64,000 nucleotides of DNA from Hexactinellida sp. DTS-2022 (Eukaryota; Porifera; Hexactinellida): positions 3,224,001-3,288,000 of the forward strand of contig JAPNXP010000005.1 in assembly GCA_028753945.1 (NCBI GenBank), read 5' to 3'. Position numbers and translations under genes: made by a program. A model generated the notes under the pieces. It did not search any database. It was not told the DNA's origin and saw only the letters and a program-made list of their open reading frames with translations. Of this stretch, positions 878-64,000 are shown one piece after another (within the stretch, counting starts at the first letter, position 1; every line of letters begins with the position of its first letter).

Positions 878-955
878 AAACTAGCGCGCTTCGCTTGCTA
901 GGTCGCTTCGCGACAAAACACAACCACACACCAACCGCTTCGCGGTTGGTGTTTG
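878..955. repeat. GC-rich cluster of mini-hairpins with TTC loops
   Basis: In strongly AT-rich surroundings this segment is a run of short hairpins whose loops are TTC: GTCGC-TTC-GCGAC near 902-914, then ACCAACCGC-TTC-GCGGTTGGT near 928-950 with a long perfect stem. It opens with an imperfect palindrome CTAGCGCGCTTCGCTTGCTAG. Relatives occur at 3513, 6836, 12.8 kb, 19.9 kb, 21.7 kb, 50.7 kb, 51.2 kb and 55.7 kb. The function is unknown. Confidence 0.7.
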
Positions 956-3288
956 GTTTAATTTATATACTTCTAACGTTAACAAAATGAAATTTTAATG
1001 ATTACGTCATCATGCGATAATAAGTAAGCATATTGGTGATCTGGTGTACCAACGTGTCTGCATCATTAATGTGCATGTTCTATTAAATTTTCAGATTTTT
1101 ATCTCTTAGAGGGCGGGAATTATGTGCGATTAAGTGAGTTTTAATGATTCTCAAAATGTGACAATGACGTCATAACTTGTCGAGGTGTGAGAAATTTTGA
1201 GTGGAAACCTCAACTTGTTGGCGGGGGCCAAAAGTTAGCACTATATGCCAAAAATCTCATTTGGAAACCGCCCAGTTTTTTCAATCAACTCGGAACATAC
1301 AAACAAATATTATACACACATACAGGTTTGTGTTTAACTTACATTTTAAAGGTCTTCAGAATCCTAGGAGAAAACAATATAATATTTTACTGTGCCGACT
1401 ATACTAAAGTATAGTGGCCCAATTCTCAGAAACCCAGGTGTATGATGGAAACTTATTTATGGGACTAAGTGGGATTTGATACCTTGGGGTGACGATGAAA
1501 TCAGCGATGCCAAACTGGGGGCCACAGGATGAAAAAAATGTATTACGGTCTATGGAAAAGGGCCCACAGAATGCTATAGGGCGTCCACGGATGAAAAAGA
1601 TCGGGACCCACTGCCTTAAATGTATATTTTCATAATTTCACAAATTTGATCATACAAAAGTAAATGAATAGTTTTGTACACAATTGGAAATGTATATGGA
1701 AGTGTATTAAAAATGTTGAGTAATAGTCGATTAAATGATAGTGAAGCTCAAATAATTAAGAAACGCAATGGGCTAAAAACAAAAATCTCATAGTGTCTAA
1801 ATTGCTGCAAGCTGCAAAGCTGCAAATTTTGTTGTGAATTAAAATGTACTTACCTCATCCTTGAATAGTTCTCTCGGGACTAAAAGATTATTTAAAAGAT
1901 GGGTAAATAGAAATCAATTACAAATGATATATATAGGTAGCAAAATACGTGAACTCAAAACCCTGAAATTGTTTTAACCAAACACTTGTAAAAACATCAA
2001 AATAATAGTTGCAAGCCCAAACCCGCAAAGAAAATGTTTTACACTCCTTAACAATCGATAGAGACACTAAAATCCTTTTATACTAATTGAATGCTAGCTG
2101 CTAATCCATACTGGGAAACCCTCGAATTTAATAGGCTAAAGTTTTTCTCACCTTTAGGGAGAGAAGATATGAATATTTTTCTTAGATATTATAACATGTT
2201 CCTAGATACACTATTCCCCACCCCCCTGCCAAATTTCAAGTATGTGGCTCTTACATGTTCCTCAATCAATTCCGAACAAACAAACAAAAACCCTCGCGAT
2301 TTAATATATAAGATATTTATAATTCAGCCGTGTCAAATTCTATATCCTGCTAACACAATCAAGAAAATATAGGTAGAAGATAGGAGAATTATAATATAAA
2401 TACAATCAATTACCCTTTTTGGATTTTGGCTTTGGGGGGCTATGGAAGAACCTAAAGAGTTAATAGGTAATCAGGTCCAATTATAATTTACCTGGGTTAA
2501 TTGAGACGTACGCGTACAATGGAGTTCGCTTAATTAATTAATTAATAAGTTATGTTAATTGGAATTTACTTTCAGTTCCAAAATAGTTTAATTTAATTCC
2601 ATTCATCAATAGCAAATTCGCTATTAGCAAGGAAATTTTGATCAAAATGCGAATTGATATTACGCGACCCCCTGATTGAATACTCATTAATTTTAACTGT
2701 GCCGATTACGCTTTGGTATATTCTAATTTAATACCTTGTTTAGCTAGTTAATTACTACGTCCACTATATTTTTTGCCAAAATGACATGCACAAAAAAATA
2801 AAATTGCAGTGTGCAGACTAAGTGATACTAAATGTATATTATGGAGGCAGGATATTTTTGCTGCATAAATAACGAAACATGGTCGGAAGAGTGGTAATTT
2901 TAGATGTTTTAAAAGGAACAAACCGTCACTTCAATTATAATAAGAGTCGCTCATTATGAACACTCGTGTATTTTGAACTAACCCTCTGGTCCCAATGGGA
3001 TAGTCCACTTCCTTATTGGGAAGTCTTTGAAATATAAACACAATATTTTCGGTCACCTGAGAGTAATAATAACTAACCCTGACTATAGTAATAATTGCGA
3101 GCGTAAAAGATAAAATAAGAACAAGTATCGGTAGTTTGCTAACCTTCTCAACTTCCCGGCCTTTCGAGGGGCTGCAGGAATACTAAAATGGATAGCTCCT
3201 CTTGATCAACAAATGAAAAAATATGAAAAGTTTATCGAAAAAATATAACTCACATCGGCCCTCTGAGAGGTGTCAAGCTAGAGTATAA
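956..3288. other. No gene recognised
   Basis: The short open frames here (for example 1187-1414 and 2091-2372) have no recognisable motif and a length expected by chance. Around 1500-1620 there are G/C-rich repeat-like remnants (GGGCCCACAG, CGGGACCCACTGCC) that may be hAT ends. Nothing else is supportable. Confidence 0.4.
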
Positions 3289-3289
3289 T

Positions 3290-3605
3290 CAAAGTTTAGA
3301 ATAATACTCAAAATAATCGATATTGAAAATGGTGTTTCAATAATACCCAATAATAATAATATAATTTCATTGAAATAATTAAATCATTCAGTCCTTCTAT
3401 GCATTTCAGAAGTTTGATTAAGGGAGACGAACTCCTATGTTCGTTTGTAAAATTTTCTAGCAGAAATCAGAAAGCCACCAAAAAAAGAGCAATCTAATAA
3501 TGAACTATAGTAACTAGCGCGCTACGCTTGCTAGGTTACTTGGCAACGTGTGAGGCGCATACAACACACATAAGAATTGTTTTAATAGTATAAATATTCA
3601 CCTAT
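3290..3605. repeat. Copy A of a duplicated segment (pair at 6510-6910)
   Basis: About 200 bp from CAGTCCTTCTATGCATTTCAG to GTGTGAGGCGCAT is nearly identical to 6713-6884, in the same orientation and about 3.3 kb apart. The part upstream is a more diverged match. It includes one GC hairpin motif (3513-3535). The pair could be LTR-like, but no TG...CA ends or polymerase were found between them, so dispersed or segmental duplication is more likely. Confidence 0.65.
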
Positions 3606-4345: not shown

Positions 4346-5123
4346 AAGTCCAAACCTTTTAAATCAAAACTAAAATCTCACGAAACAGTATACTACCTAA
4401 ATACTTCTCTAAGACATTTATTCATAACTAGTCAGTACCCGCGCTTCGCCGCGGTATTCAAATTCACGGGATGTCTTATAATGAGTAAATTATCATATTT
4501 ACATATGTCATTGATAGTATTACTAATAGCCGAAGCGCCGCCCTCCGCCACAAAAAGGCTTCTTGGTAGTTCCTGCAAAATATCATTATGTTCCAACGAA
4601 CTTGTTATATCTGTACCTCTTTAGTGGTTCTACCACTTGGGAAGTACAGAAGATAACTGTATATTCGAAGTATCATTTGTCAGTATTGGGGCTTAGAGTG
4701 TTGTAAAAATAAATAAAACTCGAGTCAGAATAATGTGAGAACTCTGCGATCTGATAGGTCAAGGTCGGTACCCTCGCGAAGTGTGAAAAATATGCATGTG
4801 GTAAATTGCAAATTATGCATTATATTGACTAAAAAATATCATATTTGGATTCCTCATACACTGAAACCTAGATAGCACGTTTGAAATGTTTTTCTAGCAG
4901 CACTGTGAACTTTTAATAATTCCCATTGAAATGTATGGGAAGGTGCCAAAAAATCACATATTTTGAGTTAACTTCGCGAGGAATGTAAATATCTCTTAAA
5001 ACTCCTTATTCAGGGTGGTTGGGTAACTCCTAGATGGCATACAAATTTTTGTTCAGATCTGTTGAGAACTCTCGGAGGAGATGTGAGGACAGACATACAC
5101 ACACACAAACCTACTACTTTATA
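4346..5123. other. No gene seen
   Basis: Ordinary AT-rich DNA. Short GC pieces such as CGCGCTTCGCCGCGG near 4440 recall the hairpin clusters but are too short to assign. Confidence 0.35.
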
Positions 5124-6509: not shown

Positions 6510-6910
6510 TGTCATTTATTGTCATTTCTAATCTCAAAATAATCAATATTTGAAGTGGTGATTCAATTATACACTATTTTTGGAATTATATTTTATTGAA
6601 ATAATTATATCATCTGTCAAATCAATATAGGATGATATGCTCAATCAGAATATATAAACTTGATCCCATATTATAGATTTGTGAGTTAATTAAACTAGTC
6701 CAAAGGACCTTTCAGTCCTTCTATGCATTTCAGAAGTTTGATTAAGGGAGACGAACTCCTATGTTCGTTTGTAAAATTTCTAGCAGAACTCAGAAAGCCA
6801 CCCAAAAAAGAGAAATTTAATAATGAACTATAGTAACTAGCGCGCTACGCTTGCTAGGTTACTTAGCAACGTGTGAGGCGCATTGTTTTAATAGTATAAA
6901 TATTCACCTG
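6510..6910. repeat. Copy B of the 3290-3605 duplicated segment
   Basis: The segment shares TCAGTCCTTCTATGCATTTC, the AGGGAGACGAACTCC stretch and the CTAGCGCGCTACGCTTGCTAG palindrome with copy A. After the shared block it runs into a different GC-richer segment (6915-7120), which aligns weakly to 3606-3690 (GGGAGC... CCCCAAACCTC). No gene is supported in 6910-7300. Confidence 0.65.
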
Positions 6911-8094: not shown

Positions 8095-9425
8095 TCAAAA
8101 TGACGTTTTATATATTTATTTGTATGGAAAATGTAAAATTTATGCTGTGCAGTGATATTAATATGATTTAAAATAATCAAATATCATGGTGTCATATGTA
8201 ATTTTAGGTTTTACCTAAAGTTACACCATTTCCAAAAGAAACTTTGTAGATTACAGCGCTTTGATTTCAGACTTCGTTTTCGTACCCTCAAAATGACGTT
8301 TCATTTATATATTTGTATGAAAAATGTAAATTTTATGCTGTGCCCAGTGTATTATACAGCCATTTGTAAATACGCTCCTGATCCTGGTCTGATCCAATTT
8401 TCATACGCCTAAATCACAAATTAATGTTACGGTATAGGAGAGGATTCCAAATTTTCGCGCTCCTAATTAATATTTTTCCTAAAATCATGCTCCAAAAGGA
8501 GCGTCTCGCGCTCCTGGATAATTCCTTGGCTGTGCCTTGAAATAATTATGATTGAAAATCATGAATTATCATGGAGTCATATGTAATTTGAGATTTTAAC
8601 CTAAGTCACACCATTTCCAAAAGAAACTTTGAAGATTTCAGCGCTTTCATTCAGACTACGGGTACCACCCTCAAAATGACATTTCATAAATATATTTGTA
8701 TGAAAAATGTAAAATTTATGCTGTGCCGTGACATAATTATGATTGAAAATCATGAATTACCATGGTAGCATATGCAATTTTAGATTAATACCTAAAGTCA
8801 CACCATTTCCAATACAAACTATGAGGATTGCTGCGCACTGATGTCAGACTTCGACCGCCACAGTCAAAATGACTTTTCTATTATATATTTGTATGAAAAA
8901 TGTAAAATTTATGCTGTACCGTGATATAATTATGATTGAAAATCATGAATAACCATGGTATCATATGCAATTTTAGATTTTTACCTAAAGTGACACCATT
9001 TCCAAAAGAAACTTTGAAGATTTCAGCGCTTTCATTCAGACTACGAGTACCACCCTCAAAATGACATTTCATAAATATATTTGTATGAAAAATGTAAAAT
9101 TTATGCTGTGCCGTGACATAATTATGATTGAAAATCATGAATTACCATGGTAGCATATGCAATTTTAGATTAATACCTAAAGTCACACCATTTCCAATAC
9201 AAACTATGAGGATTGCTGCGCACTGATGTCAGACTTCGACTGCCACAGTCAAAATGACTTTTCTATTATATATTTGTATGAAAAATGTAAAATTTATGCT
9301 GTACCGTGATATAATTATGATTGAAAATCATGAATAACCATGGTATCATATGCAATTTTAGATTTTTACCTAAAGTGACACCATTTCCAATACAAACTAT
9401 GAAGATTACAGCCCTTTGAAATATT
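8095..9425. repeat. Satellite, ~190-bp unit with 385-bp dimer
   Basis: Tandem units share AAAATGTAAAATTTATGCTG, ATTATGATTGAAAATCATGA and TCACACCATTTCCAA. Copies fall about 190 bp apart. From about 8640 two variants alternate: ATGAGGATTGCTGCGCACTG recurs at 8821 and 9206, and GCGCTTTCATTCAGACTACG at 8641 and 9026, each 385 bp apart. This is a small higher-order repeat. The first unit is interrupted by 8345-8530. Conserved palindrome ATGATTGAAAATCAT occurs in each copy. Confidence 0.85.
8345..8530. mobile_element. Unclassified insertion inside the satellite
   Basis: This about 186-bp block breaks a satellite unit between TTATGCTGTG and CCTTGAAATAATTATG. It carries ACAGCCA near each end in opposite orientation and CGCTCCT/AGGAGCG motifs in both orientations, as expected for a small element with poor inverted repeats. 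No clean target duplication is visible. Confidence 0.4.
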
Positions 9426-11107: not shown

Positions 11108-11521
11108 CGCGTTCCAATCTATATTATTAAATCTCGATTGTTGTTAGTGTGGTTTGTTTGTTTGTTTGTTTGTTTGTTTGTAGTTTGTTTGTTTGTTTGT
11201 TTGTTTGTTTGTTAGTCCGTATTGTATTAAAGTGATGGGGGAATAGAATTCGCATATATATATATATATATGAGAAAGAAACTAAGTTCCAAATGTTATA
11301 ATAGGTAAACAAGTATGCTGACTTCTAAATTCGCGTTTATAAATTTTTATATGAATATTTGTTGTTGTTGTTGTTTACATAAAATAGGTAAACAAATTGA
11401 TGAAATTCAGAATCTACCTAGAAGTTAGCTTTCAACGGGTTACTAATATAGATAAACAAGGTATGTAGGTATGTAGCACCGATCCGTCGCAAAGCAACCG
11501 ATACCGAAGAGCTCGTGTATA
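11108..11521. mobile_element. HINE/pearl-like element (Helentron-derived?), copy 1
   Basis: It begins CTATATTATTAAATCTCGAT, carries a (GTTT)n microsatellite near 11150-11210, then GTATTGTATTAAAGTGATGG, one ~140-bp core repeat (AGGTAAACAAGTATGCTGA, (GTT)n, AGGTAAACAAATT) and ends in the GC hairpin tail (GTAGCACCGATCCGTCGC to AGAGCTCGT). Head, microsatellite, core repeats and hairpin tail is the architecture described for Helentron-associated HINE/pearl elements of invertebrates; assignment to that group is inference from architecture only. Confidence 0.5.
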
Positions 11522-12087: not shown

Positions 12088-12878
12088 TCTACTATATTAT
12101 TAAATCTCGATTGTTGTTTGTTTGTTTGTGTGTTTGTGTGTTTGTGTGTTTGTCCGGATTGTATTAAAGTGATGGGGGAATAGAAACCGCATTTATATAT
12201 GAGATAGAAACTAACTTCCAAATGTTATAATAGGTAAACAAGTATGCTGAACACGAATTTCGCGTTTATAAATTTCTCATATTAATATTTGTTGTTGTTG
12301 TTTTCACAAATAGGTAAACAAATAAATGAAAATTTAAAATCAACCTAGAAGTTAGCTTCCAAATGTTATAATAGGTAAACAAGTAAGCTGAACACGAATT
12401 TCGCGTTCATAAATTTCTCATATTAATATTTGTTGTTGTTGTTTTCACAAATAGGTAAACAAATAAATGAAAATTTAAAATCAACCTAGAAGTTAGCTTT
12501 CAACGGGTATTATAGGTAAACAAGTATGCTGAACACGAATTTCGCATTTATAAAATATAATATGAATATTTGTTGTTGATGTTGACACAATAGGTAAACA
12601 AATTAATGAAAATTCAAAATCAACCTAGAAGTTTGCTTTCAACGGGTATTATAAGTAAACAAGTGTGCTGAACACGAATTTCGCATTTATAAAATTATAA
12701 TATGAGTATTTGTTGTTTACACAAATAGGTAAACAAATTAATGAAAATTCAAAATCATAACGTCCCTTTCTACCATTTCCAAGGTAGAAAGTGTGAGGAG
12801 TAAGGCCGTATAGCGGCCGTTAATTTGAGGTGCGTAGCACCGATCTGTCGCAAAGCGACCGAGACCGAAGGGCTCGTA
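12088..12878. mobile_element. HINE/pearl-like element with four ~140-bp core repeats, copy 2
   Basis: The head ATTATTAAATCTCGATTGTT is followed by GTTTGTGT repeats and GTCCGGATTGTATTAAAGTG. Core units beginning near 12231, 12371, 12512 and 12651 (ATAGGTAAACAAGTATGCTG) are 139-141 bp apart. The tail is four consecutive hairpins: GGCCG/CGGCC at 12804-12818, GGTGC-GTA-GCACC at 12829-12841, GTCGC-AAA-GCGAC at 12847-12859 and CGAGACC-GAA-GGGCTCG at 12860-12876. Related copies: 11108, 23130, 50195. Confidence 0.6.
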
Positions 12879-19882: not shown

Positions 19883-19926
19883 CTAGCGCGATGCGCTTGT
19901 TGTCGCTTCGCGATTGTTGTGTGTTG
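19883..19926. repeat. GC hairpin motif
   Basis: CTAGCGCGATGCGCTTGTTG is followed by GTCGC-TTC-GCGAT and GTTGTGTGTTGTA, matching the 878-955 cluster in shorter form. It lies about 200 bp upstream of the transposase start. Between them, 19781-19806 is a poly-C tract. Confidence 0.6.
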
Positions 19927-19978
19927 TACTCGAAACTCCTATCCGGATATCGGATAGCTGTGATGGCTTGAATGAATC

Positions 19979-20144: not shown

Positions 20145-21070
20145 TCAAAACTCAAAATTATATGCGATTCCCCTAAGATAAGTTGTTATTTCCCGGTTCC
20201 CATAATCTCCAACAAGTAACTGTATCCGCTCATCTCGTTCAATAGACTTTATGCTATGTACCATCGTACTACCAGACTCCCACTTTATCAGTTTGGCTTC
20301 CTGTAGTGATTGTTCTCGTTGCAAGAATTTGAAAAGCTTTGACACGCTTGGGTGCGAACAACAAACACTAGAATTAAATGCATTGTGCCATCCCTCAACA
20401 ACATTATTAGTTCGAGGTAGTTGTTCAGGTACCCTTTCATACATGTTCCAGATTCTGATAGGAAAGGGTGGGGACCTTCTACTGTTATTAGGAAGTCTTT
20501 TACCAATATACGTATCTTCAAAATAAGTAGCAACAAGTAGAGCAGATTCTGGAAATTCTGCCCTCAGAATAATGAAACAGTCCACAACATCATGTTCTGG
20601 CACAAAAGCAAGGCTGGTAAGCATCTTTAACTTCAGGTGGAATTCTCTATCTTCTTGATAGATTGTTGTTAACCCCTCTGATTGTATTTTTCTGTATATA
20701 TTTTGGGAGAGATGAAAGAAACAACCCGAAATTACAGCAACAAATTTGTCCTCAAATGCATTTATTGCTGCTTTTTCGAAATCGGTCATTATCGTGGAAG
20801 GGTTTAATTGTGGTTGTATTTCGAGGAGTTTAGTGAGAAGTCTATTGTAAGTAGAACCAGCTTTATCAGGTGGTAATGCATATACGCAAGGGTAGACGAA
20901 TCCATCCTTCTCTGCATGAATGGTATACAACTGAAAGAAATATTCTGGTACAACCTTGAAGGTTCCATCAGCATACCAAGTTTCAGATACTGTAAGAAGA
21001 AAAACTTGGGGTTTGCAAAGATAATCATCCGATTGACTTTGGCAGCTTCGATAAATTTTACTGTGAGAAC
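20145..21070 (-). pseudogene. FLYWCH-type MULE transposase relic
   Basis: The C-terminal 261 codons are open (20145-20930; the first codon is TTG, so the frame really runs on upstream). Visible MULE marks are WYADGTFKV (first Asp) just upstream near 20960-20985, MTDFEKA (second Asp, residue 50), GCFFHLSQ, LAFVPE, and NNVVEGWHN (Glu, residue 179). Near 21000 the reading continues in another frame (RMIIFANPKF), so there is a frameshift, and no FLYWCH zinc finger is seen upstream. It closely resembles the MULE at 33.6-35.1 kb. The triad is present but the gene appears dead. Confidence 0.8.
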
Positions 21071-21718
21071 CATTTGAACCGAACTATAGATTATTTTCTG
21101 GGTTTTTCAAACAAATTTAGGATAAATTTGGTCCACAAAACAATAAGCGCCGGGCCGCTTATTCGAAGCAATACGGTAAGTTATATATTTATCAGTCCCC
21201 AGTACCTATTTAGATATGACAGGTTCTAACAAGAGTTGACTGTATATTTAAATACAATATTATACTTGTTATAGTATCTAGCTGTACAATGACTATGGAA
21301 GATCTCATACTGCTACAAACCACACTACGGAGATAGATACTAAATTAGAAATGATATTTTGTATGAGTGAGGTTATAACTTCGCCTCGTACAAACCATAT
21401 TACAATCGACCCTACAACTATTAAACAACAAGTTTTTGATGTCCTCTATGAATTGTATGGATCTCTCAGTGAAGTCAAAAGAGCTAATTGCAGATATTGG
21501 TTTACAAATCGAAGAATATGGTTTACAAATCGAAGATTTTGTACCTGTGGTCGTACAACAATAAGGGCCCTCGCTACAAACATGGATAGAGGCATTGGAC
21601 ATAATAAAATCATTCGACCAAAACTAATTTTTTGTTCTTTTTCTAACAATTTTTCCTATTACGTAGCTTATTAATTAACAAAACTTATGAAATGAAATTC
21701 CAAAATATTTTAAATTTT
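21071..21718. other. No gene recognised
   Basis: A single CCGTAT-type end (TTATTCGAAGCAATACGGTA) is at about 21160-21180. GATATTGGTTTACAAATCGA shows a local 18-bp tandem duplication near 21494-21535 (ATGGTTTACAAATCGAAGA). Open frames on both strands at 21345-21674 mirror each other and have no motif. Confidence 0.4.
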
Positions 21719-21830
21719 CTCCTTCACGAGGCACGAAGTGCCGAGTGCAACACACAACAACCGCGAAGTGGTTATGTGTGGTTGTCACACGTTGCGAAGT
21801 GACCGAGCAAGCGTAGCGAGCTAGTATATA
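21719..21830. repeat. Full-length GC mini-hairpin cluster
   Basis: Four hairpins follow each other: GGCAC-GAA-GTGCC (21730-21742), AACCGC-GAA-GTGGTT (about 21759-21773), GTTGC-GAA-GTGAC (about 21789-21801) and a GC-GTA-GC stem in GAGCAAGCGTAGCGAGCTAG. Three have GAA loops and one GTA. 51222-51331 is a close homologue in the same orientation; 878-955 is an inverted, shorter one. Confidence 0.75.
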
Positions 21831-26409: not shown

Positions 26410-27130
26410 CTTGAAAGTTTAAAGTGATGGGGCTGATAAAATAGTGCTAAGAGCGTTCACTAGACAAGTTAAGCCGGAATATAATCGGAGGATTATTTCA
26501 AAGCCTATAATAACCAATGCCTTGGGGGATGGGGCAATGGCGCTATATCGCTATCCGTAATTTAGGTACTTTGATATTCCGGAATGGTACCGTTCAATTC
26601 CGGAAATTAGGTACGTGTATGTCCAATGTTTTTGAAGAATTTATAATACAAGTAATAACATCCAGAAAAACACACAAGGCGAAAGAATTAGCTATTTTTA
26701 GTGTGCACTGTACAATGAATTGATATTTATAAATACGTAGAGTTTCTAGCACATAAACAACGTAGGAAAGATTAGATTTCAACCCGGTGTAAGCGTGTTT
26801 TGGGTATCCAGCGATTTAGGGATCCCCGTCCCTAAAACGCTAGCGTTTTGGGTCCTCTGGGTCCCTAAAACGCTAGCGATATAGGGACGGGGATCCCTAA
26901 ATCGCTAGCGTTTTGTGATCAAGGGGTCCCTATATCGCTAGCGTTTGTGGTCGTGGGGTCGCTATATCGCTAGCGTTTTGTGGTCGTGGGGTCCCTAAAT
27001 CGCTAGTGATACAGGTACGCCAGCGTTTTGGGTATCCTCGTTTCTGTGCCCTAAATTATCTAAAGTACTTATGATTACTTGATGATATATAGATATGTAA
27101 TTATACTTCCTACGGTAGGCCTAACTAACA

Positions 27131-27313
27131 CTACATTTCTTTGCAAATTTCACTCGCCAACTTATAGTTTGGCTCTGTCCACGCCAGTATCGGGATCCGC
27201 ATACAATCTTCGTGAAACCATTCTTGACAATCTGCACATTGTATCATTTTGCCTGCTTCCTGAGTACGGTATTTACAAAATATATCGATCCTCTTTCTAT
27301 TTTCTATTTTCAC
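27131..27313 (-). pseudogene. Decayed PHD-finger fragment
   Basis: The frame shows IFCKYRTQEAGKMIQCADCQ, then EWFHEDCM and IPILAW, the central and second half of a PHD finger (CxxC, WFHxxC). The last zinc pair is damaged: the expected W-x-C-x-x-C reads LASEIC. Its first CxxC is not complete either. It lies inside the long-TIR element, so it may be the tail of that element's transposase or a captured host exon. Confidence 0.6.
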
Positions 27314-27410
27314 TCACAAACTAAAGATAGTGAAGGATTTGGGAAATATATAGAAGACTATGCCTTGAGCCTATAGGTTATATATGGGTGGCCTTAGGTG
27401 GGGTGACGGT

Positions 27411-27642
27411 CCAGGGTTGCCGTGGGTATGGGAATCAGATTTCCCTGTGGGGATACCCATATGGATCCCCATAGGAAATCCTTATGGATATCAATACAAG
27501 TGATACAGAGCCGTTACACCAGTTACGACATTTTTTCTGAAATGTTATAGCAGCCTATTTGTATGTGTGGAAAGTTGCAAATGATTCATATGGGAATGGG
27601 ATGGGGATGGGAATGGAAATTCCACTCCCACGGCAACCCTGG
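27411..27642. mobile_element. MITE with CCAGGGTTGCCGTGGG ends
   Basis: CCAGGGTTGCCGTGGG and its exact complement bound 232 bp. It splits the long-TIR element. The host piece GAGCCTATAGGTTATATATG just left of it is duplicated at about 27687-27725. No clean target duplication next to the ends. Confidence 0.65.
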
Positions 27643-28022
27643 CACTTGGGTCCCTATATCTCCGAATTGATCCCTAAATCGCTAGCATTTTTGAGCTTAT
27701 AGGTTATATATGGGTAGCCTTGGGTGGGGTCCCTATATCTCTGAATTGATCCCTAAATCGCTAGCGTTTTCGGGATCCATGGGGTCCCTAAATCGCTAGC
27801 GATATAGGGACGGGGATCCCTAAATCGCTGGATACCTAAAACGCGCTTACACCTGTGTAAGCAAGTTTTAGGGTCCCCAACCCTAAATCGCTAACGTTTT
27901 ACGGCCCAACAGCCCCCCGGGGCTAAATCGCGTTTACTTCCGAACCAAACCAATATATTGAACGTACTACGTACAGCATAAACATTGTTCTGGTAAAACT
28001 GTTTTTGGCTTTAGCATCGAAC

Positions 28023-49759: not shown

Positions 49760-50868
49760 CAGTGGCCGATTATCATTGAGGCTAATGAGGCTGAAGCCTC
49801 AGTCCTCATAATTTGGGGGGCCTCAAAATAATATGATGAGTCTAAACCCCCATACTATTTATACTATTCTGCCTGCCCCCCAGGTTAGATAATGAACTGC
49901 GTCGTTGTACAATAAACGGTGATGAGGATTCTTAAATTATATTTACACATAATGATAATGTTAAGATTGTTTGTAATTTATAAAAATGTAATTTCCTCAA
50001 TTTTGTGAAATCATATTCTAGAAATTTCAGGTTGTTTCTAGAATTCGAATGTGTTGTTTCTTCATGACTTAATCATTGAATTGGCAATCAAGCAACATTT
50101 GATTCCTTAACATTATATATTCAATATTATTCACCATTAGCTGTTAAATTATATGTTTCTTACGTGTATGAGGTCAGGTAATCGGTATTATATTAATTTT
50201 CCCATTTACAAATTATAATATGAATATTTACTGTTGTTGCTTACAAAAATAGGTAATCAAATTAATGAAAATTCATAATCAACCTAAAAGTTGGCATTCA
50301 ACGGATTTAATAGGTAAACAGTGTGCTGAACACGAATTTCGTATTAACAAATTTATAATATGAATATTTGTTGTTGTTGTTCACACAAATAGGTAAACAA
50401 ATTAATGAAATTCTTAATCAAACTTGAAGGACGTGTAATTTAAGTTTATAAAAAGTTCTATGACAAATATTACTAACTATGTAATCAACGGCCCAGTGGT
50501 GAATCTAGACTTTTAACTCAGGGCGGTAGGGGGGGGGGACTAACGAAGTACAATTGAAGTCAGGGGGGGAGTATTTATATTTCGCTATAGTAAATTAAAC
50601 CCCCCCCATAAGCGAAGGGTCTGAAGTAATCTCAGGGGGGTCCTTTTGTAAAAAATAATTTCAGGGGGAGTATAAATGAAACCTGCAACGGTCGCTACGC
50701 GGCCGTTAACTTGAGGTGCCGAGCACCGATCTGTCTCAAAGCGACCGAGTCCAAAGGGCTCGTCGGTATTATGTAGAAACTTATTATTCAGCAAAAAATG
50801 TGTCAGTATCTAAGAGGGGCCTCAAAGGCAATTAGCCTCAGGCCCCAAGTGCAGTTAATCCGCCACTG
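49760..50868. mobile_element. hAT element, 1109 bp, perfect 8-bp duplication
   Basis: CAGTGGCCGATTA and, inward from the right, CAGTGGCGGATTA are the ends. TTGATGCC flanks both (49752-49759, 50869-50876). It carries no transposase but contains a later HINE-like element (50195-50765) and a C/G-tract repeat (50500-50685). Confidence 0.95.
50195..50765. mobile_element. HINE/pearl-like element, copy 4, nested in the hAT
   Basis: Two core units (AGGTAATCAAATTAATGAAA at 50251, AGGTAAACAAATTAATGAAA at 50391) are 140 bp apart. 50688-50765 is the hairpin tail (GGTGC-CGA-GCACC, then AAGCGACCGAGTCC and GGGCTCG). Between them lies the G-tract repeat 50500-50685. No head or microsatellite is present. Confidence 0.55.
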
Positions 50869-51221
50869 TTGATGCCCACGCATCGCCCGTGGAACCATCG
50901 GTCACAAAATTCACAATTTTTATATTATAAAGAAACAAACTAGTACGATTTGATTGGGGAATTGAAGCTGAAAAATGTTTCAAAATAACATCAAACTGCT
51001 GCCTAAATGTTCTCTAAGTAATCTAGAAAGATATGCAATTTTAACAAAAAAATTTATAAGCCAAAATTCTGGCCCAATGCTGGTGCACTAGCGTTAATAG
51101 TACCAATATATCCCCAACCCAAAATCACAAACATGCATACTCATTGTGAAAATATGACGTCATCATGATAATTAAAAAAATTAAAATAGGTAACTTTTGT
51201 TTTGAAAAAATTAATAGTTTT

Positions 51222-51331
51222 CTCCTTCGAGAGGCACAAAGTGCCGAGTTTAGCACACAACAACTGCGAAGCGCTTATTGTGTGGAGTGCGACACGTCGC
51301 GAAGCGGTCTAGCTAGCGAAGCGCCCTAGTC
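51222..51331. repeat. GC mini-hairpin cluster, homologous to 21719-21830
   Basis: CCTTCGAGAGGCACAAAGTG, GCACACAACAACTGCGAAGC, GACACGTCGCGAAGCGGTC and CTAGCTAGCGAAGCGCCCTA repeat the order of hairpins of 21719-21830, with AAA or GAA loops. 50920-51220 has no gene. Confidence 0.75.
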
Positions 51332-55667: not shown

Positions 55668-56345
55668 TACGAGCCCTTCGGTGTCGGTGGCTTCGGGACG
55701 AATCACTCTATCACAAAGCTCGCTTCGCGACCTTTGTTCGTTAGTGTATTACACTTCACTCCCATGCCAAAAGTATATGAACAACAAATATTATTATACA
55801 AACAGTAACGGTTTTTAGCAACAATATTACGTTTGTAGATCCTAATACATGGATATTTATATAAAACAATTGTTCAGTATAATAAAATAGCAAATTTTGC
55901 TAATTTGAATTTTTATGGAGGTCATTAACTCAATAACTATATAATGAGTTAATTAAAAATAAATTTCGGATAGTTATGAGGCAATTAGAATATTCAAAAT
56001 CTGATTTCAGATTTGAATAGCACGTCAATTACTTTAGGTGCTAAATTTATAATAATTAGGATTATTTTTTCTGAGATATAGACACATTCACATTTGTTCC
56101 ACTTGTGCCACAAGTGGCACGTAGCAGGAATACTATGCTACTTCATGGATATTGGCTGAAAATGACCTAATATCACAATGTGTAAATTCACTATTATAGC
56201 AATAAAATATAGTCATTTTGGTGTGTTAAAATGGCCCTTAATACGCTTTTAGAAGATTATTGTGTATGCGTTACAATTCTTGTTGCTCAAAATCTTTTGA
56301 CCAGGAAGTGTACGTAACACAATTAACGGCCGCTTCGTGGCCTTA
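55668..56345. repeat. Inverted hairpin tail split by a Tc1-like MITE
   Basis: ACGAGCCCTTCGGTGTCGG and GCTCGCTTCGCGAC (55669-55725) and AATTAACGGCCGCTTCGTGG (56322-56341) are, together and in reverse, the tail found at 12800-12878. GGCCGC-TTC-GTGGCC is again a TTC loop. The MITE at 55752-56310 lies between the two parts. Confidence 0.6.
55752..56310. mobile_element. Tc1-like MITE, 559 bp, copy 3
   Basis: CACTTCACTCCCATGCCAAA and (from the right) CACTTCCTGGTCAAAAGATT are diverged inverted ends; TA flanks both. The central GTGCCACAAGTGGCACGTAG segment marks it as a relative of 11524-12085 and 43519-44081. Confidence 0.85.
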
Positions 56346-61507: not shown

Positions 61508-63032
61508 GCTTTAAACTTAAAAAAAATTCAAATTATGAATATTCTGTGTTTCCCATTGAATAATGTTGTGTAACTGCCACCGTCACCCCAATGGTAACTT
61601 GACCTTTTAACTAAGAAAATATACCACCGGATGCTCCCAAAATTGGAGAAGTTATTCATTGTAACAAGACTTAAAAATGGAAGCATTATGGGATATGTGA
61701 GATTTGGACTTTTACCTTGGTGGCATGACAACTGATAAGAGGTGTAAAAGATCCCAAATCTTGATTTTTCCCCACCACAACAGGTCTAAGGGCATGATAT
61801 ATTAATTATTTTGTACCGTACATAGGTTGCGTTTGTTGGTTCTAGTATAAATTAGGGCCTCTAAAAGTTTCAAGTACTCAGGATCAATGTTTTTTAAGAT
61901 AAAAGTCTGAGTTGCCAAAAACCATGTTCTTGGGAAAAGGATGCTGAAATTCTACACATATTGCATAGCATTATCTTCCAGTATAGTCATTAAATATAGC
62001 AATTTGGCATTGCATTCATTTAGTGTTGTAAGGCGTGGACTGCCTTTAACCAATAAACATATAATTAGCTTCAATTAATCGAATTCCATGCAAGTTGCTG
62101 CCATAATAACGGAGTCCGCTTTCTTTTGGGACATTTTTATCTGGAATTTAAACATGGCTAACGTGGTGATTAATGTTCTAATATGTATAATATGTCTAAA
62201 CTAGTTGGGATACAGTATGAATATACTAATATATATGAGAATTGAGTTAAATTATATAATATAGTCAATTAATCTGTTGATGATGCAATAAAAATAAATA
62301 AAAAATGCAGATCAGAATTTCTAACCCATGATCAACTTATTTTTGAAAATATATGCTAACCACTGAGATATTTGTGCTTAATAATGTTAGTTTATCAGAG
62401 ATGCAGCGGTCCGGAAATTTCATGGACCGGACCGGACCGTCATGATTTTTTCTGGACAGTCCAGACCGTATGATCAAAATATTGGATCGGTCTGGACCGG
62501 TCCAGACCGTTGAACCGGTCCAGACCGATGTAATGGTCCAGACCGTTATATCCCTTATTTGGACCGTTACAGACCGCAAAGTAGAGTGGATAAGTATATC
62601 CACTTGTGTTTATAAGATACTTATTACTTATGTGCTTGTAAACAATGGGAAATAACGGACTTGAGCCCGATCGCTTGTCCAAACTAGGATGAGTCCAGAC
62701 CGTTATATCGTTAATTTGGACCGTTCTAGACCGCACTTGAAAACAAGCGGACCGGACCGACCTGAGACCGTTCGGTCCGGTCCGGTCCAGACCGATGCAT
62801 CTCTGGAGTTTATACACGTATATATAAAGTATTTAAGTGCACGATATATTACATATAATACCAAGGAAAGTCAATTTCAATATTTAAAAAAGCTAAATCG
62901 TCAATAATGACGTCAGCAAATTGACATTCTGAAGACTTTGCAGAATATTATTTTTTTTAATTTCATTTCTCACATAATTTTATGATATATCAGCCTCATT
63001 TCAATTTTGTCACCAAAAAACATTAAATTTCA
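61508..63032. mobile_element. Presumed insertion splitting the LINE
   Basis: CCGAAGCATCCTTAAAT stands at 61491-61507 and again at 63033-63049, with further similarity beyond. A 17-bp duplication fits a target-primed (LINE/SINE-type) insertion or unequal repair. The insert has no recognised coding region and contains a complete hAT MITE (62396-62805). Confidence 0.4.
62396..62805. mobile_element. hAT-type MITE, 410 bp, with GGTCCAGACCG arrays
   Basis: CAGAGATGCAGCGGTC and, from the right, CAGAGATGCATCGGTC are the ends. TAGTTTAT (62388-62395) and GAGTTTAT (62806-62813) form an 8-bp duplication with one mismatch. TCCAGACCG occurs six times and GGACCGGACC several times in both subterminal regions, likely transposase-binding repeats. 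Confidence 0.9.
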
Positions 63033-64000
63033 TCCGAAGCATCCTTAAATATTATGGTTTTACAATTAGTAGTAGGGACTAGGGAAAGCAGACGAGAGTA
63101 TAGATCTAAAAAATTATTCCATAATTTATCTAAAGAATGAGCAAGTGTGAAGGCTGGTAGCGAGTCCTTGAAAAGTTGTTCAGCTAGGAACATGTCTATT
63201 TTGTGGTATAGGTATACTTTTCCTAGTCTTTTTGGAACTGCGGTGTTGCTGTAGTTGAAGAAGATAACATCGTGGTCGCATCCACTGAGAGGAGGTCTAT
63301 ATACTAGTTTGCTGACCTGATACTGATTAATTGTAAATACTAAATCCAGTATGGCTTTATAGGAAGCAGTATTAAAAATAGGTTGTAAATTCTTACGTGT
63401 AGGTTCGGTATTATGTTGATAGAGGAATAGGTCATCAATAGCATTTAAGAATTCAGTTGCAACCGATTGATTTTGGCAACCAGAAGCTAGGTGAGAGGAC
63501 CAATCAATCCCGGGTAGATTTAAGTCACCCAATAGAATAACATTTTTACCTTCAAAGGTTTTGATGTAATCGCACAATAATTTTGTATCTTGAGTCGAAG
63601 AGTTTGGAGGTCGATACACTAAACAAATGTAGTTAGACTTGATGAATTCCACCTTGATGACTAATATGTTAATACGGTTAAATGATTTAGATTCTATCGG
63701 ATAGTGCTTTATTGTCATTTTGTCATCTATGTAAAGCGCTACACCTCTATAGTCTTCTCTTGAGCAGAAAAAGCCATGGTACCATGTAATTGTAGTTCAT
63801 ATCCCGGCTTAAACCAAGCTTCAGTAATGGCGGGAAAATGAATTCTTTCTGCATTTATTAACTGCTCAAATTCTAAGTACTTATTGCTGAGTGAACGAAA
63901 GTTTGTGTACACGTGTACATGAAATTAATTCCATTTGGATTAGTGGGAAATTGTGAATCGCTTACAAAGTCTGGTAGTAAAGATAAAGTCGAGTCAAGAG
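63023..64000 (-). pseudogene. CR1-like LINE endonuclease domain, partial
   Basis: 231 codons (63023-63718) are open: CLVYRPPNSS, VILLGDLNLPGIDW, LDLVFT and PPLSGCDHDVIFF, which are the conserved boxes of the apurinic-type endonuclease of CR1/L2-like LINEs. Upstream, in other frames, lie FRSLSNKYLEFEQLI, FPAITEAWFKPGY and GVALYIDD (63730-63920), the domain start. The copy extends past the window edge. Stops and frameshifts near 63720-63800 suggest it is inactive. Confidence 0.85.

Follow-up and report, generated by a model that had tools for sequence, protein, structure and literature searches.

Serial mini-hairpins with triplet loops at the 3' ends of Helitrons in a hexactinellid sponge genome

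Results

Hairpin blocks recur across a 64-kb window

The window, that is, the whole 64,000-nucleotide stretch analysed here, has a GC content of 31-46% per 2-kb stretch and contains a set of short blocks of consecutive hairpins (Table 1). In the block at 0.9 kb (878..955), read on the plus strand, the terminal hairpin is CTAGCgcGC-TTC-GCttGCTAG (881-901) and the penultimate hairpin is GTCGC-TTC-GCGAC (902-914; GTCGC-GAA-GCGAC on the element strand). They are followed by a perfect 11-bp stem with a TTC loop (928-952), which extends to 15 bp with one mismatch (924-956). A preliminary description, made from the sequence alone, had listed nine such places. We counted hairpins whose perfect stem has 4 bp or more, three or more of them G/C, and whose loop is one of the six named there (GAA, AAA, GTA or their complements), and compared the count with 100 dinucleotide shuffles. 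The window holds 10 such hairpins against 2.07 ± 1.35 in the shuffles (maximum 6), an approximately five-fold excess, and two hairpin neighbours within 60 bases against 0.02. Eight of the ten lie inside blocks, the others being at 6701 and 43687. The heptamer GCGAAGC occurs 12 times against 1.8 ± 1.3, a number reached in none of the 100 shuffles. All nine listed places, and a tenth at 11.5 kb, match one of the families described below (A or B/C; BLAST, E ≤ 1e-4), with short matches at some blocks (29 bp at 19.9 kb, 39 bp at 3.5 and 6.8 kb). Thus, the blocks are real and above chance. The base following the final CTCG or CTAG is T in 10/10 blocks.

The blocks do not all conform to one description. 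Serial mini-hairpins with different neighbouring stems and recurrent GAA, AAA or GTA loops are indeed present, but a perfect stem of at least 5 bp with a named loop is found only in the blocks at 0.9, 12.8, 21.7 and 51.2 kb; those at 3.5, 6.8 and 55.7 kb are decayed by this measure, and the loops at 19.9 and 50.7 kb are GAT and CGA. Six blocks were folded as single-stranded DNA. Four are in the window (z in Table 1), and since two of these, at 21.7 and 51.2 kb, reach only -1.8 and -0.9, they have no clear structure on their own; the remaining two blocks gave -3.5 and -3.3. An Rfam search of the window returned three matches at E ≤ 1, all far below the gathering score and none on a block.

Several other repeats were observed in the window. 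Positions 8529-9417 hold a 193-bp tandem repeat of 4.6 copies with a 385-bp higher-order unit (96% matches), and 26828-27829 two short tandem arrays with units of about 33-35 bp and the motif CCTAAATCGCTAGCG. On the minus strand, a long open frame at 17217-19814 matches a Mutator-like transposase (PF20700, 218.6 bits) and has a MULE transposase fragment as its neighbour (20145-20930); an endonuclease-reverse-transcriptase domain fragment at 63023-63718 (PF14529) is probably the remnant of a non-LTR retrotransposon. A lone match to the first hairpin of subfamily A2 (56311-56344, minus strand, 91% over 34 bp) precedes the 55.7 kb block by about 0.6 kb, taken in the direction of the element, and is either a part split off by an insertion or a separate fragment.

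Table 1. Helitron ends and related features in the window (a slash marks an element boundary; z, DNA-fold z)
Feature	Position	Strand	Remarks
Family C Helitron 3' end	881..956	-	Three hairpins; 3' end at 881, next host base T; z -7.6
Non-autonomous element whose 3' end is the 0.9 kb block	881..1310 (approximate; 5' boundary approximate to the base)	-	~0.43-0.45 kb; shared 5' motif TTTGTATGTTCCGAGTTGATTGA
Decayed family B 3' end	3514..3551	-	Terminal hairpin, GTA loop; CTAG then T
Uninterrupted host repeat, the target of a coding Helitron inserted elsewhere	4410..4705	+	No duplication
Decayed family B 3' end	6837..6874	-	CTAG then T; flanks resemble the 3.5 kb copy
Decayed family A 3' end, absent from the preliminary description	11467..11515	+	CTCG then T
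Complete non-autonomous family A Helitron, 789 bp	12088..12876	+	A/TCTACTATATTATTAAATCTCG ... CTCG/T; 141-bp tandem core
Four hairpins of the 12.8 kb copy	12804..12876	+	12804-12818; 12829-12841 GTA; 12847-12859 AAA; 12860-12876 GAA; z -4.4
Rearranged family B 3' end	19883..19932	-	29-bp match; CTAG then T
Family B 3' end, four hairpins	21715..21824	+	CTAG then T; z -1.8
Decayed family A 3' end	50690..50762	+	CTCG then T
Family B 3' end	51216..51329	+	CTAG then T; z -0.9
Family A2 3' end, long upstream hairpin in G-C form	55670..55747	-	CTCG then T

The blocks fall into families that share their last two hairpins

Three families of ends were distinguished. Family A (12.8 kb) has the hairpins GGCCGC-NNN-GCGGCC, GGTGC-GTA-GCACC, GTCGC-RAA-GCGAC and CGAGaCC-GAA-GGgCTCG downstream of a tandem core of about 141 bp; in its subfamily A2 the second hairpin is replaced by a long one, ACAAAR-GTCGC-GAA-GCGAC-YTTTGT. 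Family B (21.7 and 51.2 kb) consists of GGCAC-GAA-GTGCC, a hairpin with a 13-bp stem, GTCGC-GAA-GCGAC and C(G/T)AGCaaGC-GTA-GCgcGCTAG. Family C (0.9 kb) has a hairpin with a 15-bp stem, G(T/C)CGC-GAA-GCGAC and CTAGCaaGC-GAA-GCgcGCTAG. An end thus carries three hairpins in C, four in A and B, and more in composites, and the last two are common to A and B/C in the form GTCGC-GAA-GCGACC(G/T)AG...CT(C/A)G.

The families are abundant in the genome searched (112.4 Mb in 18 contigs), the one genome from which all counts are taken. The sequence GTCGCGAAGCGAC has 862 + 868 matches against 2 + 0 for the reversed control, and the family A anchor 892 exact matches against 0. The family C long-hairpin pattern gives 1418 matches per strand (up to three mismatches; control 0) and, because it is its own reverse complement, these correspond to about 1418 places. 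The copies come from ranked or exact-match searches, many of them on contig C1, and share ancestry, so that counts are not numbers of independent events.

The blocks are the extreme 3' ends of Helitrons

Using the motifs of the last two hairpins, we surveyed the window and 172 loci and obtained 191 ends, of which 178 were distinct after 13 duplicates had been dropped; among the ends listed, the five decayed window blocks at 3.5, 6.8, 11.5, 19.9 and 50.7 kb apparently lie outside the 178. A host T directly follows the end in 170 of the 178 (103/106 in A, 67/72 in B/C), the T not being part of the search motif. The last letters were contained in that motif, with errors allowed, and read CTCG, which is not CTRR, in 101/106 A ends and CTAG in 52/72 B/C ends. 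At the other extremity, family A elements read A/TCTATATTATTAAATCTCG: of 33 motif matches 25 could be parsed, and in 22 of these A precedes TC. The three parsed ends preceded by G comprise two head-to-tail junctions with the CTCG of another element (L031, L110) and a parsing artefact (L034). The eight unparsed matches comprise seven further head-to-tail junctions and one locus (L013) with TT instead of TC. Family B/C 5' ends are not clearly TC. The hairpin blocks are the extreme 3' ends of Helitrons and do not form a stand-alone repeat class, as the preliminary description had proposed.

The head-to-tail arrangement is an observation in its own right. A CTCG end abuts the next 5' end in 9 of the 33 family A motif matches (L017, L019, L021, L029, L030, L031, L110, L113, L130), and a second 5' motif is arranged head-to-tail in two of its four matches (L017, L124). 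These junctions give the impression that elements insert at the 5' ends of others.

A Rep-helicase element with a family A end

The Rep family PF14214 (Helitron_like_N) has at least 151 matches in the genome and none in 14 control genomes. The copy at C1:13949763 matches with 221 bits within a 1453-aa open frame, and it is by PF14214 that we identified the Rep of the coding element. This element was read across loci L072, L070 and L071, with the exception of 1.2 kb between L072 and L070. Its first part (L072 2288-4147, 620 aa) matched no Pfam family. The frame downstream of Rep, in L070, matches PIF1, Pif1_2B and, weakly, OTU (31 bits, cut-off 23), and shows no Exo_endo_phos match. The 3' part carries the family A tandem core and ends with four family A hairpins; the complete family A copy in the window matches it over 662 bp at 88% identity, and the A2 element L174 matches the coding element's 5' end over 250 bp at 90%. 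Thus, the Rep and the PIF1-like helicase encoded by autonomous Helitrons are both found in one element with a family A end, and family A is related to this Rep-helicase(-OTU) element. Between the helicase frame and the 3' end lies a further 291-aa open frame (L070 3619-4494), which is built of a short repeat and has a weak collagen-repeat match.

The host flanks of the coding element, when joined, give the repeat found uninterrupted in the window, TTTACATA/TGTYATTGATAG. The insertion lies between A and T with 5'-TC and has duplicated no target bases; the junction is ambiguous by one base, so that T^G would fit as well as A^T, and an 8-bp length difference adjoins the site.

The block was shown on a single coding element, of the A1 type. 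L174 is a short non-autonomous copy and not a second coding element, the candidates having been picked by position only. L173, on the downstream side of another Rep match, had no match to L070 in the 4.2 kb compared, the 3.4 kb adjoining the Rep match lying outside the comparison. Families B and C yielded no coding partner. A further Rep clade with an endonuclease match, L069, is Helentron-like, and serial hairpins are absent from the 5 kb of it that were examined. Two further observations concern these clades. Downstream of the helicase frame, L069 (2796-2876) and L070 (3470-3552) have a segment in common, GGGGAAAGGTAC...TGTCCCAAGTG...CTGAGGGA, which has no Rfam match and no significant RNA fold. 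Near the Helentron-like element lie long inverted repeats (L069 4779-4897 and 3368-3465), whose matches to unrelated microRNA families are all below the gathering score.

Loop triplets are mostly kept on one strand

We parsed the loops of the last two hairpins in 155 of the 178 ends, reading the 5'-TC...3' strand with patterns that favour GAA- and AAA-like loops. The terminal loop is GAA or GTA in 148/155 ends and TTC or TAC in none; the penultimate loop is GAA in 80, AAA in 67 and TTC in one. Further upstream, the second hairpin of A1 has GTA in 67 of 73 copies, and the family C long hairpin has GAA in 38, AAA in 12, TTC in five, TTT in one and four other loops (n=60). The first hairpin of family A is more variable (ATA 30, ACA 27, GAA 18, GTA 7 and others, n=93) and has an inverted loop in 3/93 copies (TAC 2, TAT 1); the A2 upstream hairpin is inverted in 2/18 parsed copies. 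The preliminary description had held the loops to be fixed: they are mostly kept, but in hairpin 1 of family A the usual triplets are ATA and ACA, and upstream hairpins occasionally show the inverted loop. These counts indicate loops that are mostly purine-N-adenine, and not strictly GNA, on the presumed transferred strand.

The orientation of the loop was also followed genome-wide. With up to one mismatch, AAA being counted as one mismatch of GAA, 1840 matches to the penultimate hairpin of family A are of the GAA type and three of the TTC type (one exact). For the upstream A2 hairpin, whose core is identical, the figures are 649 of the GAA type and 67 flipped (Fisher p 2e-34). This contrast is suggestive only, since the flipped copies probably go back to a small number of events and flipping may be rarer in short stems.

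Stem changes are mostly one-sided, and a few are compensatory

The preliminary description had also suggested that structure is under selection, and compensatory stem changes were sought in an alignment of 41 rows, which we selected from the 72 B/C ends without a formal rule, and in the A2 copies. Some were found. Of 18 A2 copies, 12 have A-T and six have G-C at the base pair adjoining GTCGC, with none mixed. In the B/C alignment, 90.5% of cells are paired against 88.4 in shuffles, 20 cells are changed on both sides against 6.9, and the covariation score is 0.116 against 0.080 (0/500 shuffles as high in each case; best slid version of the score 0.042); all three measures lie above every one of the 500 shuffles and every slid version. 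The count of pairs changed on both sides does not stand out from the shuffles for these rows (6 against 3.8; 69/500). The compensatory events are few: they involve six pairs, one position provides 13 of the 20 cells, and one pair reads C-G in 26 rows, A-U in 12, G-C in one and U-G in one, with one gap. An unaided consensus fold has 16 pairs and recovers the long hairpin, with neither of the last two in register. Some stem changes are thus compensatory, but the majority are one-sided. One-sided changes are what is expected of decay after insertion, and selection, if any, would have acted in active lineages.

Hairpin number varies among ends

The hairpin series itself differs between copies: one GTCGC hairpin has been lost from L119 and from L132, whereas L118 carries an additional one. 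In subfamily B2 (for example L044, L061, L068), a family B end without its last arm is fused to a family C end, and L043 is a B2 copy that has lost part of the second block. The B2 composite looks like a damaged terminator to which a second one was appended.

Discussion

We consider it very likely that the blocks are Helitron 3' termini, mostly of short non-autonomous copies, whose hairpins would serve a Rep-helicase as a stop and cut signal. We infer the terminator function by analogy with Helraiser, whose 3' hairpin, according to PMC4778049, acts as a terminator: once it was deleted, 8.8% corrected transposition remained; with a swapped stem about 90% of activity was retained; and altering the loop, along with one loop-closing pair, was equivalent to deletion. 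The natural pattern, in which stems are free and loops are mostly kept on the 5'-TC strand, matches these results. Helraiser cleavage is reported for the top strand only (PMC5876387, in part). GNA mini-hairpins closed by G-C pairs are described, in the excerpts of PMC4686876 and PMC6479982, as extraordinarily stable in DNA, and the title of a further paper announces the solution structure of an AAA triloop hairpin.

In the mechanism that we propose, the 5'-TC...3' strand would be peeled off as single-stranded DNA during transposition and the triloop hairpins would fold on it. Once folded, the hairpins would mark for the Rep-helicase the point at which to halt and cleave, the last of them lying on the cut site. 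Stems would be free to change as long as pairing is kept, and the triloop would matter more. The transposase may read the loop, or the loop may only stabilise the fold. A damaged terminator would be read through and the terminator of a neighbouring element added downstream, so that the series would grow, and gains and losses of direct repeats would also shape it. Read-through of a damaged terminator to the next one has been seen experimentally with Helraiser (PMC4778049), and the B2 composites fit such an event.

A more far-reaching and less probable reading is that a Helitron lineage has evolved a serial terminator, in which the triloop (mostly GNA/ANA on the transferred strand) would be the recognised signal, the stems would be free, and terminators would have been stacked after damage or read-through, the ends recording bypass events. 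Template switching within a hairpin copies one arm onto the other and inverts the loop. It would keep palindromes paired with no selected loop code, and the additional hairpins of a Helitron end could then be passive, which we regard as rather unlikely. Loop inversions do occur at several upstream hairpins (6/60 in C, 2/18 in A2, 3/93 in hairpin 1 of A, and the 67 flipped A2 copies genome-wide). The inverted shares are higher in the long-stem hairpins of C and A2, flipped copies have multiplied, and stem changes are mostly one-sided, all as passive hairpins would have it. Yet the last two hairpins keep their loop orientation, with three inverted against 1840 and no terminal TTC or TAC among 155, although their short stems may flip less.

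Stable stem-loops and some compensatory change would also be accounted for by a family of structured RNAs or small-RNA precursors that had spread as a repeat of its own. Such a family is very improbable, since the blocks sit where transposons end and the position of the cut is fixed, GNA loops are well known as a stable motif of DNA, and the window has no gathering-score Rfam match; the family matches, the T-flanked ends and the intact target site likewise led us to reject a new repeat class or RNA family. That GC palindromes are merely insertion hot spots, and not part of the elements, might be read from the many elements that adjoin others, head-to-tail junctions included. But the position of the blocks relative to the element body and to the 3' cut is constant, and the uninterrupted target has no block at the insertion point, which contradicts the idea for one insertion; we give it next to no credence.

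What tells a Helitron transposase to stop has yet to be settled. The hairpin ends described here are a natural series in thousands of copies, the 1840 family A ends at up to one mismatch being one example. Its stems are variable and most of its loops preserved, and flipped-loop and composite variants serve as natural mutants. The series makes both a single-strand terminator read by its loop and the gain of terminators by bypass directly testable.

Our search of the open-access literature turned up no Helitron 3' end with serial hairpins of which the last occupies the cut site, an absence that weighs little. GAA-loop terminal hairpins with different stems are already known from Fusarium Helitrons: in the available part of PMC5148889, the Helitron2-like FoHeli1 and FoHeli2 have the hairpins GCC-GAA-GGC and TCC-GAA-GGA at their 5' ends. 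These elements resemble ours in their GAA triloops and differing stems, but they are described there with one hairpin per end, terminal inverted repeats that are asymmetric and a 3' end rich in T, whereas here a series stands at the 3' end. Helentrons and HINE/DINE-1 elements share with the sponge elements short non-autonomous copies, central tandem repeats and a 3' palindrome, as given in the excerpts of PMC4067079; they have subterminal inverted repeats and a preference for TT, where our elements insert at A^T. The Helentron type also has an endonuclease, a match to which is lacking in the L070 frame, L069 being of that type. The mini-hairpins of the d(GCGAAGC) type have the same GNA loop and closing G-C pairs (PMC4686876, PMC6479982, in excerpt); they are described there as oligonucleotides, whereas here they are repeated in a transposon end. 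Canonical Helitrons (Helitron1; Helraiser/Helibat1), as defined in PMC5148889 and PMC4067079, are likewise similar, with the 5'-TC of family A, insertion at A^T without duplication, a Rep-PIF1 helicase, a 3' palindrome and the CTAG end of most B/C copies. Unlike them, family A ends in CTCG and there is an OTU match in the coding frame. Canonical Helitrons have one palindrome about 10-12 nt before the 3' end, whereas the elements described here have several, the last of which includes the terminal bases.
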